This document shows positions 50,108-56,791 of a DNA stretch of 64,000 bases, piece by piece (the first letter of the stretch is position 1; the number at the start of each line of letters is the position of its first letter). The notes below the pieces were generated by a model that was not told the DNA's origin, did not search any database, and saw nothing but the letters and a program-made list of their open reading frames with translations. A program made the translations under genes and the position numbers. This stretch comes from Phycisphaerae bacterium (GTDB taxonomy: Bacteria; Planctomycetota; Phycisphaerae; UBA1845; PWPN01), in assembly GCA_018003015.1 (NCBI GenBank), contig JAGNEZ010000021.1, forward strand, positions 1 to 64,000, written 5' to 3'.

Positions 50108-52168
50108 TCACTTGCGGGTTATTGTCTTCACTCTAATCTCGCGTCCGCCGGGGCCCTCGGCCGAGTAAGCGACCCACAGCGTGCCTGCGGCGTCGTATGT
50201 GGCGGACGGGAAGCGGGGATTTCCGTCTGCCTCGATCTCGGTTGCGTCGGACCATTTCGATTGCAGGGGGCTCCAGCTTGCCAGTTGCAGCGTCCAGCCT
50301 GTGCGGCGCTGATTCTGACTCCACACCAGGCTGACGGTTTGGTCGGGGGCGACGGCCAGGATGGGTGTGCACACGTTGGTGCTCGGGGGGCTCAGTGCCT
50401 GGGCGGGCTGGGGGCGGGTGGCGCTCATGTCTCGTTGGGTGACCTGGACCGTCTTGCGGTTGGCGCCCGCGTCGTCATCCCAGCCGAGTGCGTCCCAAGC
50501 GCACCAGATCTGGTCCTTGCGGTCGACGACGAGGGTGGGAGTGACGTCGATGGATCGCCCGCTGACGTGCCTGGCCTGGCCGAGGCGGAGGTCCTGGCCG
50601 ACCTCGCGGAGGAAGATCGTTGGGCACTCGGCATCCCGGGTGTAGCCCGGTGGCGTGTGATAATCCCAGCTCCAGCCCAGGAGGATGCCGTCACGATAGG
50701 CCGCGACGGTCGGATCGCTGTGGTCTTCGTAGTTGGGCACATCCGTCGGGCTGACCTGCATTTCCGGCGACCATTCTTTCCCGTCGTACCGCCGGACATA
50801 CACCTCCTTGTCGCGCGAGAACCGACCCATTCTGTGCCAGCGGTAGTACGTGCACCAGATCCGTCCTTTTCGGTCGCAGGCCATTCTCGCGTGCATGGCG
50901 TCGTTGTCGGCGTGGCTGAGCTGCATGGCGGGGGCCGGTTTGCCGGTCGCGTCCAAGGAGGTGACGAACACGTTGTATTTCTTGCCGTCGGAGTTGCTTG
51001 TCCAGCTGATCCAGGCCTGTTTCTGGTGGTCGACGAGGACCGAGGCGTCGAACTCGTCGGCCTCGGTGGCGGCCACCGGTCGGTCCTGCGACCAGCCCCG
51101 GCCGTCGTGGACCCGTACGAAGATGTCGTTGTTGCCCCGACGGTTGCCGGAGAAGACGAGGTAAGTGGTTTTGTCCGGTCCGCAGGCCAAAGCGGGGAAC
51201 CGTTCCGAAGGGCGCGCCTTGTCGATTTCGCCCGACCGTTCCAGTGTTGCCCGCATGTACGATACCCCGTCGCGAACGATCACCTGGGCTTCCGGTTGGG
51301 GCTGGACGAGGTTCTCGAGGCTGGCGGCCAGGGAGGTCATTTTCGGGTTGTTGGCCCGGTAGACCACTTGACCCGAGTGATCGACGAGCATGATGAAGGT
51401 CCACCCATCGGGGTTGTACCTCTTTTCGAAGGTGCGATCGGGGTCGAGCACGTTGACAAAGGGTAGCCGGTAGTGCCGCTGGAACTCGAGCGATTCCAGC
51501 TCGTTGTCGCCGGAGACGCTGCGGATGAACTGCACGCCGCGCGGTCCGAAGCTGGCGGCCAGATCTGCGAACGGTTCTGCGTCCTGCTGGCATCCGCCGC
51601 ACCAGCATGCGCCGAGGATGATCGCCACCGGTGTGCGGACATAGTCGCTCGAGCGGATCTCCCGGCCGAAGGTATCCTGGAGCTTGAACTCCAGGGTGGA
51701 CGTCTCGTGGTCTGGTTCCGGATCTTCCTCTTCGGCTGCCGGTTCCGATGTCGCCCTGGTGCCGGCCTTGGACGGGCCGGTCTTGAACGAGATGGGGTAG
51801 GGGATGGCCGGTTCGCCACTTTTGCTGCGGAAGTTCTGGAACCGGTCGCTGTTGATGCTCAGCCAATACTCGTGGTTGGGTTTCAGCCGGACAGGCAGGA
51901 TACACGTGCGAGCGTTGATCCAGCGGGGCTTGTCTCGTGTGGTGGGGAAGGTGGGTCCACCGCCAACCCAGGAGAAGCCGCGGGTGTTCATGTCCTGATC
52001 GAAGGTGACACGGATCGAGCTGAGGGCGGGGTCGACACTGGTTGCGTCCGGCAACGGGGTGGAGGTAGTGACTCTCGGCGGGGCGGCGGGCGCCGGGGTC
52101 CCGGTGGCGGCCAGGGCCGCTGCGGACAGCAGGGCATTGCGGAGGAGTAGCAGGCTGGCTTTTGGCAT
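50108..52168 (-). CDS. Exported Ig-like / thioredoxin-like / beta-propeller protein
   Basis: A 686-residue protein with a signal peptide (LLSAAALAATGTPAPAA). Residues ~32-130 are a bacterial Ig-like domain (STPLPDATSVDPALSSIRVT). Residues ~155-290 are a thioredoxin/AhpC-like fold with active site GACWCGGC, so a CxxC pair is kept. The rest is a beta-propeller with repeated blades of sialidase/BNR type (YVRRYDGKEWSPEMQVS, CAWDALGWDDDAG, AVAPDQTVSLVWSQN). It may tie redox or peroxide reduction to carbohydrate binding. GGGAG is 9 bases before the ATG. An 11-base direct repeat lies 50-70 bases upstream. Confidence 0.75.
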   Translation of the reverse strand: MPKASLLLLRNALLSAAALAATGTPAPAAPPRVTTSTPLPDATSVDPALSSIRVTFDQDMNTRGFSWVGGGPTFPTTRDKPRWINARTCILPVRLKPNHEYWLSINSDRFQNFRSKSGEPAIPYPISFKTGPSKAGTRATSEPAAEEEDPEPDHETSTLEFKLQDTFGREIRSSDYVRTPVAIILGACWCGGCQQDAEPFADLAASFGPRGVQFIRSVSGDNELESLEFQRHYRLPFVNVLDPDRTFEKRYNPDGWTFIMLVDHSGQVVYRANNPKMTSLAASLENLVQPQPEAQVIVRDGVSYMRATLERSGEIDKARPSERFPALACGPDKTTYLVFSGNRRGNNDIFVRVHDGRGWSQDRPVAATEADEFDASVLVDHQKQAWISWTSNSDGKKYNVFVTSLDATGKPAPAMQLSHADNDAMHARMACDRKGRIWCTYYRWHRMGRFSRDKEVYVRRYDGKEWSPEMQVSPTDVPNYEDHSDPTVAAYRDGILLGWSWDYHTPPGYTRDAECPTIFLREVGQDLRLGQARHVSGRSIDVTPTLVVDRKDQIWCAWDALGWDDDAGANRKTVQVTQRDMSATRPQPAQALSPPSTNVCTPILAVAPDQTVSLVWSQNQRRTGWTLQLASWSPLQSKWSDATEIEADGNPRFPSATYDAAGTLWVAYSAEGPGGREIRVKTITRK

Positions 52169-54365: not shown

Positions 54366-54371
54366 TATAAT
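54366..54371 (+). promoter_or_regulatory. -10 element of the GrpE-like/Hsp70-like operon
   Basis: A perfect TATAAT ~98 bases before the ATG, with no convincing -35 at normal spacing. No heat-shock inverted repeat (CIRCE type) was seen. Confidence 0.45.
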
Positions 54372-54468
54372 GTGGGGCGACGTTGACGTCCGGTGGCGCG
54401 GTTGCTATGCCGGGCGCCGATGCCGCGCAATCTCCATCCGGCTGCAACATCGGGAACGAGGTGTACTT

Positions 54469-55209
54469 ATGGCGAAGAAGAGTACCGCGTCACGAAGCAC
54501 GGCCACCGCATCGACGGGTAGGGCTGTGGCGACGAAGGCCAAGACGAAACCGGCGTCAGCGGTTGCGGAGAGGTCTCCGGCCGCGGCGAAGGCGGTGAAG
54601 CGGGCGGACGACGTCGCCCACAAGGCAGACGCCGCGAAGGGCGCGGGTGCGGGTACGGTCCGCGTGGGAGAGGACAAGGCCGCGGCCTCCCGTATTCTCG
54701 CTCGGGCGGAGGCCGATATCACCGCGGCGATTGAAGCGATGAACAACCAGATGAACTCGGCCATGAGTCGGCTGACCGAGTTGGCGGCAGCGCAATGCGG
54801 CAAGGGTCACGCGGTGGTGCGGACGGCTCCCCTGGACCGGGCGACGGCCACATTCCAGCGGCTTGTTGCCGAAGTGATCGATGACCAGCTTGCCGAGATG
54901 CTGCCGCCGTTGATCAGTCTTCGCAACGAGTTTGCCCAGCGGGTCGATGGCAACGGCCAGGAGGCGGCGGACGACGATTTTGCCCAGCGTGGCAAGGAGA
55001 CGCTGGACCACGTTTTGATGCTTGCGGGGGTACAGAGCTACGAGCCTCGGCTTGGCGAGCTGTTCGATCCGATTATTCATCTGGCGGTGGGGGAGTGTCA
55101 TCGTCAGGATCTGGCCGCCAACAGTGTGGGTCAGACTGTCCAGCCCGGTTTCCGCTCTGCGCGCGGCAAGGTTTTGGTGGCCGCGAAGGTGCTGGTCAAC
55201 AGGAGGTAA
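54469..55209 (+). CDS. Divergent GrpE-like protein with a Lys/Ala-rich N-terminal tail
   Basis: A 246-residue protein. Residues ~1-70 are Ala/Lys/Ser/Thr-rich and basic (AKKSTASRSTATASTGRA, ATKAKTKPASA), like histone-H1-type tails. Residues ~75-180 are helical. The C-terminal part matches the GrpE wing domain: GVQSYEPRLGELFDPIIHLAVG and VGQTVQPGFRSARGKVLVAAKV. GrpE is the nucleotide-exchange factor of DnaK. The next gene encodes an Hsp70-like protein, which supports the assignment. The SD GAGGTG is 5 bases before the ATG. The overall match is weak outside the C-terminus. Confidence 0.7.
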   Translation: MAKKSTASRSTATASTGRAVATKAKTKPASAVAERSPAAAKAVKRADDVAHKADAAKGAGAGTVRVGEDKAAASRILARAEADITAAIEAMNNQMNSAMSRLTELAAAQCGKGHAVVRTAPLDRATATFQRLVAEVIDDQLAEMLPPLISLRNEFAQRVDGNGQEAADDDFAQRGKETLDHVLMLAGVQSYEPRLGELFDPIIHLAVGECHRQDLAANSVGQTVQPGFRSARGKVLVAAKVLVNRR

Positions 55210-55213
55210 GGAC

Positions 55214-56791
55214 ATGGCCCGGTTGGGCATCGACTTCGGCACGACCAATACCGTGGCCGCGATCCACGATCGGGGTATGTTCTCGATTGTCCTTCACGGG
55301 GCCCAGACCGGCGCGGGTACGGTTGTTCAAGAGACTTATCCTTCGGCCATTCTGGTTGAGCGGGCGACCGGCCGCCAGTGGTTCGGTCTTGAGGCCGAGC
55401 GGCGGTTCGCCCAGTTGCCGGCATCGGCGGAGTATCTGTTTGTTCCGTCGCTCAAGCGGCAGCTTCGGGACTACACCGCTCGCGGCGACGGCCACTCGCA
55501 GGAGACGGCCGCCCTGCTGACCGGTTTTCTGAGGTCGCTGGCGAGTTCGATCCGTCAGTCGCAGATGATCCCGGACGACGAGTTGCTCGAAACGGTCATC
55601 ACCTGGCCGGCGAATGCCAACGGCGCCCAGCGGCACATCACCCGGGCCTGCTTCCGGGAGGCGGGTTTCGAGGTCATCGGGACGCTCAACGAACCCACGG
55701 CGTCGGCCATCGAACTGGCCGACTGGCTCACGGCCGGCCGCGGCAAGAAGGGTGGCCGCAAGACCGGCAAGGAATCGGAGCCGATGGCGGTGGCGGTTTT
55801 CGATCTCGGCGGTGGCACGTTTGACGCATCGCTGGTCTGGATCGAGAACCAGGACTTCCGGGTGATCGCATCTGCGGGGATCGAGGACCTGGGAGGTGAC
55901 GATTTTGACCGGGTTCTGCTGGAGATGTTTTTGGCCAAGCTGGGTGGGCCAAACCAGGTGATGAGTCCTTTGACGCGGCAGGCCCTGATTCATCAGGCCC
56001 GCTCTCAGAAGGAGAGCATCTCGACCGGGGCGGTTCGGAGTCTGTTCCTCAACCCTGCGGACTATGGGCTTGACGGCCGGCCGGTCACGATTCCGGTGGT
56101 GGCCTACTACGACCGCATCCGCCCGATGCTGGTGCCGGCGGTCAAGATGCTGAAGGGCGTGATCGAGTCTGCTGCCATCAAGCAGCCGGGCATCGAGGAT
56201 GGTTCGCGGCTGACCGTCTACCTGGTCGGCGGCTCGTCCAAGCTGCCGCTGGTCGGCCAGATGGTAGCGGAGGCGTTCCCGGCCAGCAAAGTCGTTCTGA
56301 CCGACAAGCCGTTCCGGTCGGTGGCCATGGGAGCCGCCATCTGCGCGATGGACCGGGTCACCTTTCGCGACGTATTTGCCCGCCACTTCGGCTTGCTCAG
56401 GCTTCGCGACCACGGGCGGATCGAGACCTTCGACACCATTTTCCCGGCCGGTACGCCGATTCCGCGTAAGGGTGAGAAGCCTCTTGAAAGGGTTGCCTGG
56501 TATCATCCGGCCCACAACGTCGGCCACCTGCGGTATCTGGAGTGCACTGCGATCGGGCGGGACGGGCTGCCCGACGGAAACGTCCGTGCCTGGTCGGACA
56601 TCTTCTTCCCTTACGATCCGGGCCAGCCGTTGAGTGCCCCGCTCAGCGTAGCGGACATACACGCCACCGATGCTTTCGCCAATCAGCCGGTGTGCGAGGT
56701 GTACCGGTGCGATTCCGATGGTGTGATCACCGTGGAGTTGCGGCGGCCGTCCTCGAGCGATGTGCGCTGTTACGAGATCTACGACAACTGA
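55214..56791 (+). CDS. Hsp70-like ATPase
   Basis: A 525-residue Hsp70-family protein. The nucleotide domain is complete: phosphate-1 GIDFGTTNT, a Lys81 counterpart of the catalytic Lys (VPSLKRQL), NEPTASAIELA, phosphate-2 VFDLGGGTFDAS (residues ~195-206), and the adenosine motif LVGGSSKLPLV (~337-345). A Lys/Gly-rich loop (RGKKGGRKTGKE, ~174-186) interrupts it. A short beta substrate domain follows (FPAGTPIPRKGEK), but the helical lid is absent, so it is ~100 residues shorter than DnaK. The SD AGGAGG lies within the end of the GrpE-like gene. Confidence 0.88.
   Translation: MARLGIDFGTTNTVAAIHDRGMFSIVLHGAQTGAGTVVQETYPSAILVERATGRQWFGLEAERRFAQLPASAEYLFVPSLKRQLRDYTARGDGHSQETAALLTGFLRSLASSIRQSQMIPDDELLETVITWPANANGAQRHITRACFREAGFEVIGTLNEPTASAIELADWLTAGRGKKGGRKTGKESEPMAVAVFDLGGGTFDASLVWIENQDFRVIASAGIEDLGGDDFDRVLLEMFLAKLGGPNQVMSPLTRQALIHQARSQKESISTGAVRSLFLNPADYGLDGRPVTIPVVAYYDRIRPMLVPAVKMLKGVIESAAIKQPGIEDGSRLTVYLVGGSSKLPLVGQMVAEAFPASKVVLTDKPFRSVAMGAAICAMDRVTFRDVFARHFGLLRLRDHGRIETFDTIFPAGTPIPRKGEKPLERVAWYHPAHNVGHLRYLECTAIGRDGLPDGNVRAWSDIFFPYDPGQPLSAPLSVADIHATDAFANQPVCEVYRCDSDGVITVELRRPSSSDVRCYEIYDN

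Follow-up and report, generated by a model that had tools for sequence, protein, structure and literature searches.

The window analysed here is the whole 64,000-nucleotide stretch (positions 1 to 64,000 of contig JAGNEZ010000021.1, assembly GCA_018003015.1) of a Phycisphaerae bacterium of the Planctomycetota. On its plus strand it carries a GrpE-like gene (P0001; 246 aa; 54469..55209) followed by a lidless Hsp70-like gene (P0002; 525 aa; 55214..56791); the two open reading frames are separated by 4 bp with the GrpE-like gene first, as the first-pass annotation had placed them. Ribosome-binding sites were assigned from the sequence as GAGGTG (54458..54463, plus strand) for the GrpE-like gene and AGGAGG (55201..55206, plus strand), which overlaps the 3' end of the GrpE-like gene, for the Hsp70-like gene. 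A TATAAT at 54366..54371 (plus strand) is the putative -10 element of a promoter belonging to the pair; in 8 of 11 orthologues, whose neighbourhoods are mostly unrelated, the 160 bp preceding the GrpE-like start contain an exact TATAAT, against a chance expectation of about 0.0045 per sequence. Elsewhere in the window, positions 50108-52168 on the minus strand encode a 686-aa protein with a Big_5-like domain followed by a thioredoxin-like (AhpC/TSA) domain.

The same genome encodes a canonical DnaK (contig C21, about 32 kb from the pair), canonical DnaJ and GrpE (contig C56, beside GroEL/GroES-like genes), and an HscA-like Hsp70 (contig C15, with HscB-like and IscS/IscU-like neighbours), so that the pair comes on top of the housekeeping systems.

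Distribution of the pair

Across 101 genomes, comprising that of the window and 100 relatives, the GrpE-like gene was found at high similarity in ten, with a complete Hsp70 adjoining it in nine; in the tenth (G017), the Hsp70 starts 4 bp downstream of the GrpE-like gene and is interrupted by an assembly gap. Extending the search to 114 genomes of the order, 397 of the class and 392 of the phylum (the latter two sets evenly drawn) added one pair, in a genome of another order with a GC content of 54% (G330). The pair is thus present in 11 Planctomycetota genomes, which give 11 GrpE-like orthologues and ten complete Hsp70s, and the spacing of the two genes is 3-4 bp in every case. Among named records the nearest is the MAG Planctomycetota bacterium isolate RA.bin145, whose Hsp70 is 97% identical to that of the window.

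Apart from one pair of genomes of the same genus, no neighbouring gene is conserved across the orthologous loci, and an operon with neighbouring genes was rejected on this ground. Because neighbours are not shared, the spacing stays at 3-4 bp and TATAAT recurs, the two genes are seen as a self-contained unit, patchy in distribution and probably with its own promoter. The absence of an adjacent DnaJ gene, pointed out in the first-pass annotation, holds at the window locus, and no J-domain gene is conserved beside any orthologue. Where the GrpE-like proteins of two genomes have diverged more, so have their Hsp70-like proteins (r 0.90 for pairwise divergence; 0.81 once the near-identical pair is removed), which fits partner proteins and would also be expected of any two genes of one operon. 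Viral or plasmid cargo was rejected with no relative found in the viral_contigs or plasmids collections at the limits used. A known defence system was rejected because PADLOC does not match the GrpE-like protein and matches the ATPase domain only weakly.

The GrpE-like protein and its basic tail

The GrpE-like protein matches the Pfam GrpE model (E 1.1e-9; 38.7 bits vs a cut-off of 25.8), as do all ten members. Its helical part (54691..55005, plus strand), where the dimerisation helix and bundle are expected from GrpE, was modelled with low confidence (mean pLDDT 55), with helices predicted at residues 66-109, 120-160 and 166-185 in the right order for GrpE; a Foldseek search with this model returned nothing significant, the model being too poor for the result to carry meaning. 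The beta-domain (55006..55200, plus strand) aligned to that of canonical GrpE by hhalign at 97.4% over 67 columns and contains the motif FDPxxHxA ... G[FY] ... A. A GrpE fold for the C-terminus is accordingly supported by Pfam in 10/10 members and by profile-profile comparison, to which the AlphaFold model is too poor to add. The beta-domain is the part of GrpE that opens the Hsp70 cleft.

The N-terminal end of the GrpE-like protein is a basic, Ala/Lys-rich and probably disordered tail (residues 1-74; 54469..54690, plus strand; pLDDT below 50 for residues 6-68 in the AlphaFold model) that contains 16 K/R vs 6 D/E, a net charge of +10 in about 74 residues. Such a tail is present in 11/11 orthologues, at lengths of 60-126 residues and net charges of +8 to +35, and is rich in Ala, Lys, Thr, Ser, Arg and Pro; over all orthologues the composition is 22% Ala and 25% Lys+Arg, with 217 K/R vs 45 D/E and two aromatic residues in total. 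The first 70 residues of canonical GrpE proteins of the same group are acidic, with net charges of -13 to 0 when the miscalled L100 is left out, and the difference from the tails gives a Mann-Whitney p of 1.2e-6 with L100 included. The basicity of the tail is not chance, because nine neighbouring proteins used as a control contain no 76-residue stretch that reaches +10 and because every orthologue has a basic tail.

The tails align poorly among orthologues, keeping their composition while the sequence drifts fast. Between the two closest genomes, dN/dS is 0.62 for the tail vs 0.03 for the remainder of the protein, and K/R losses make up 1 of 14 changes, which is not clearly below chance. Disordered polyelectrolytes usually keep composition and not sequence. 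The first-pass annotation described the tail as about 70 residues and histone-H1-like: it is basic and Lys/Ala-rich as described, and the likeness to H1 is one of composition only, a histone or HC2 domain having been rejected because Pfam gives no match for either in the tail. As a separate observation, the genome has two HU-like proteins, and one of them (L121; G000:C48) carries a short basic tail, PKKAGKKSAKRKR, at its end.

The Hsp70-like protein

The Hsp70-like protein matches the Pfam HSP70 model above its cut-off (E 3.2e-31) and scores far below the NCBIfam equivalog cut-offs for both DnaK (106.7 vs 648 bits) and HscA (125.4 vs 708.6 bits). An identity as HscA was rejected on this score and because the HscA-like gene of the genome lies elsewhere, beside its HscB-like and IscS/IscU-like genes. 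In a phylogenetic tree, the Hsp70s of the pair form a separate clade with a support of 100/100 and a long stem. A distant lidless relative is encoded in another genome (G431; L077, 7630-9153, minus strand) with no GrpE-like neighbour, and the only GrpE seen in that genome is the canonical one.

The nucleotide-binding (ATPase) domain (residues 1-378; 55214..56347, plus strand) was compared between the ten complete orthologues and 21 canonical Hsp70s of E. coli and relatives. Catalytic residues are intact, with D8, T11, K70, P143, R151, N170, E171, T173, D194 and T199 retained in 10/10. Five positions that are invariant in 21/21 canonical proteins are replaced in all ten orthologues: R167 (by G/D/S/N), Q378 (C), L391 (F/Y/V), D148 (G) and I168 (T/A). 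In DnaK, the HPD motif of the J-domain is held at its Asp by R167 and Q378 and at its His by the carbonyl of L391 (PMC8215388). P419 is kept in the family, and E206, D211 and D477 were dropped as evidence on J contacts because they vary in canonical relatives too. Since the contact residues are replaced, the absence of DnaJ nearby, read at the level of sequence, reflects loss of the J interface and not merely gene order, and the Hsp70 of the pair is probably J-independent; a divergent J-protein could fit the changed surface.

The cleft pair K/R55-E267, present in 21/21 canonical proteins, is D/E55-R267 in 10/10 orthologues, with the polarity reversed. Such bridges are missing from HscA, which does not use GrpE and whose ADP release is fast, and from most HscCs (PMC8215388). 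The swap here is compensated and would leave a bridge that can be opened, and hence suggests that nucleotide is released slowly and that the exchange factor is private and matched. A Lys-rich loop in the ATPase domain (RGKKGGRKTGKESE; residues 176-189; 55739..55780, plus strand), noticed in the first-pass annotation, is present in the window and is confined by the alignment to the window's own genus, the other orthologues having a shorter and hardly basic loop. A basic Hsp70 loop was therefore rejected as a family trait, and the argument of that annotation from basic segments on both partners fails for the family because the loop is lineage-specific.

The C-terminal part (residues 379-525; 56348..56788, plus strand) comprises an altered linker, in the place of the DVLLLD linker of DnaK-type Hsp70s, and an SBD-beta-like domain, after which the chain stops; the helical lid (SBD-alpha), already reported missing in the first-pass annotation, is absent from all ten complete orthologues. 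The start of the domain, IFPAGTPIP, aligns with LIERNTTIP of DnaK and its end, YRCDSDGVITVEL, with FDIDADGILHVSA; in profile comparison with DnaK, the first strands and the end motif match and the middle does not. The best fold match of the predicted model, at modest confidence, is a DnaK mutant without SBD-alpha. The domain is well conserved within the family, and H434, H438, C444 and C499 are invariant and kept even in the distant G431 protein; these two His and two Cys are a possible metal or redox site.

Related systems and proposed role

Several known systems resemble the pair in part. In Myxococcus xanthus, the GrpE homologue MXAN_6672 is bicistronic with MxDnaK2 and binds it, so that a second GrpE likewise lies directly upstream of a second Hsp70 in a two-gene operon; MxDnaK2 differs in being described as a DnaK duplicate with SBD-alpha, and the parts of the description of MXAN_6672 considered here do not mention a basic tail (PMC11019930). 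The closest documented design, by likeness of design only, is human BAG-1M / Hap46, an Hsp70 exchange factor that binds DNA, with no preference for sequence, by a basic cluster at its N-terminus; in the DNA-NEF-Hsc70 complexes that it forms, the substrate domain of Hsc70 is left free (PMC2672009). BAG-1M differs in having a BAG domain and not GrpE, a short KKK/RRR cluster, and a partner, Hsc70, that is a general, lidded and J-dependent chaperone. Yeast Snl1, another exchange factor of Hsp70, binds to a nucleoprotein, the ribosome, through a lysine-rich segment, although it is membrane-anchored and has a BAG domain (PMC3962485). AlgP and PhaF share a disordered Ala/Lys/Pro-rich tail on a helical domain, acting as a nucleoid tether, and the KPAA-rich, H1-like tail of AlgP binds DNA (PMC9239181); their KPAA repeats are regular and C-terminal, they have no Hsp70 link, and the charge density of the tail described here is lower than that of AlgP-type repeats. 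HscA and HscC are likewise specialised bacterial Hsp70s, but with the features of the pair reversed: a lid is present, J-proteins are dedicated to them, and use of GrpE is not expected (PMC8215388).

HSP70 and GrpE genes also occur together in GAP1-N2 conflict systems, where some HSP70s are shortened (PMC7159879). Membership in these was rejected because the pair has no GTPase or effector neighbours (no GTPase, FNIII or DnaJ-fusion gene lies near it) and the orthologous loci have no conserved neighbour. A different module of a GrpE-like gene and a lidless Hsp70 of about 500 aa recurs within this order (L009, at G000:C31, 2492-8291; also L114, L115, L116, L117 and L118). In at least L009 and L115 it contains a vWA protein and is near a phage-type integrase; in L009, a HerA-like ATPase lies upstream and the Hsp70 is also without R167. 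It is possibly a mobile conflict or maintenance module, and a common origin with these integrase-linked modules was rejected because the Hsp70s of the pair form their own long-stemmed clade. In a third paralogous set (L119; G012:C929, 3107-5991), a short J-domain-like ORF is in one row with a GrpE-like gene and with an Hsp70 that has lid-like helices.

As a variant of GrpE-Hsp70, the pair is real and conserved; it is not a new kind of system. We assign a probability of about one half to the reading that it is a dedicated machine of exchange factor and Hsp70 that the tail anchors on an acidic polymer, that is not started by a J-protein and that acts as a local remodeller; we infer both the tethering and the J-independence. 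The GrpE-like dimer would open the cleft of its partner and exchange nucleotide through the beta-domain, as homology, adjacency and correlated divergence suggest, and the conserved charge of the flexible tails suggests that they would hold the complex on the polymer, which is most likely the nucleoid or else ribosomal RNA or polyphosphate. The Hsp70 is predicted from its intact catalytic residues to hydrolyse ATP and, with its J contacts lost, would not be started by a J-domain protein. Lacking a lid, it would hold a narrow set of clients and hold them briefly, and the tether would therefore supply the local concentration that normally comes from J-proteins and the lid. Under such a division of labour, the tail would provide location, the exchange factor cycling and the lidless substrate domain brief binding, and the machine would remodel particular complexes on the polymer. 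The specialisation away from general folding proposed in the first-pass annotation is supported by the lost lid and J-contact residues, and action on nucleic acid is plausible by composition and by analogues. Neither outcome that this annotation named as refuting its reading, a tail missing from orthologues or a C-terminus of another fold, was observed.

A lysine-rich ribosome tether on an exchange factor is documented in Snl1, and the tail of the pair could similarly bind rRNA, with nascent or ribosome-bound proteins as clients of a dedicated NEF-Hsp70; tail composition cannot tell DNA from RNA. We consider this rather unlikely, as the pair is not in a ribosomal gene neighbourhood at the orthologous loci and an Hsp70 without lid and J contacts is without the features of nascent-chain Hsp70s. 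It is improbable that the tail is an unselected low-complexity extension and the pair ordinary divergent GrpE/DnaK paralogues with an unspecified soluble client: although the tail sequence is hardly constrained and GC-rich genomes let disordered tails drift easily, the tail is basic in all 11 orthologues, including the 54% GC genome of another order, K+R far outnumber D+E over all tails, and the group's canonical GrpE proteins are acidic at the corresponding end.

The Hsp70-like protein might also be an ATP-dependent switch or scaffold and not a peptide holder, its nucleotide being regulated by the GrpE-like protein; this would suit the missing lid, the changed linker, and an SBD-beta that is strongly diverged yet well conserved in the family with its invariant H434, H438, C444 and C499. 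The recognisable start and end motifs of SBD-beta and a fold search that ranks whole lid-deleted Hsp70s first make us give this little credence.

A more specific form of the tethered exchange factor-Hsp70 machine, which we put forward tentatively, is a J-free bacterial Hsp70 machine in which the exchange factor is the targeting subunit and places the lidless Hsp70 on the nucleoid by its H1-like tails, an independent counterpart of BAG-1M. In the usual view, J-proteins target Hsp70s, and exchange factors are generic release factors. If the tethered machine is true, targeting can pass from the J-protein to the exchange factor. The pair offers a small, testable two-protein system, and its reversed salt bridge is a natural test of what separates the Hsp70-NEF specificity from that of DnaK-GrpE in the same cell.
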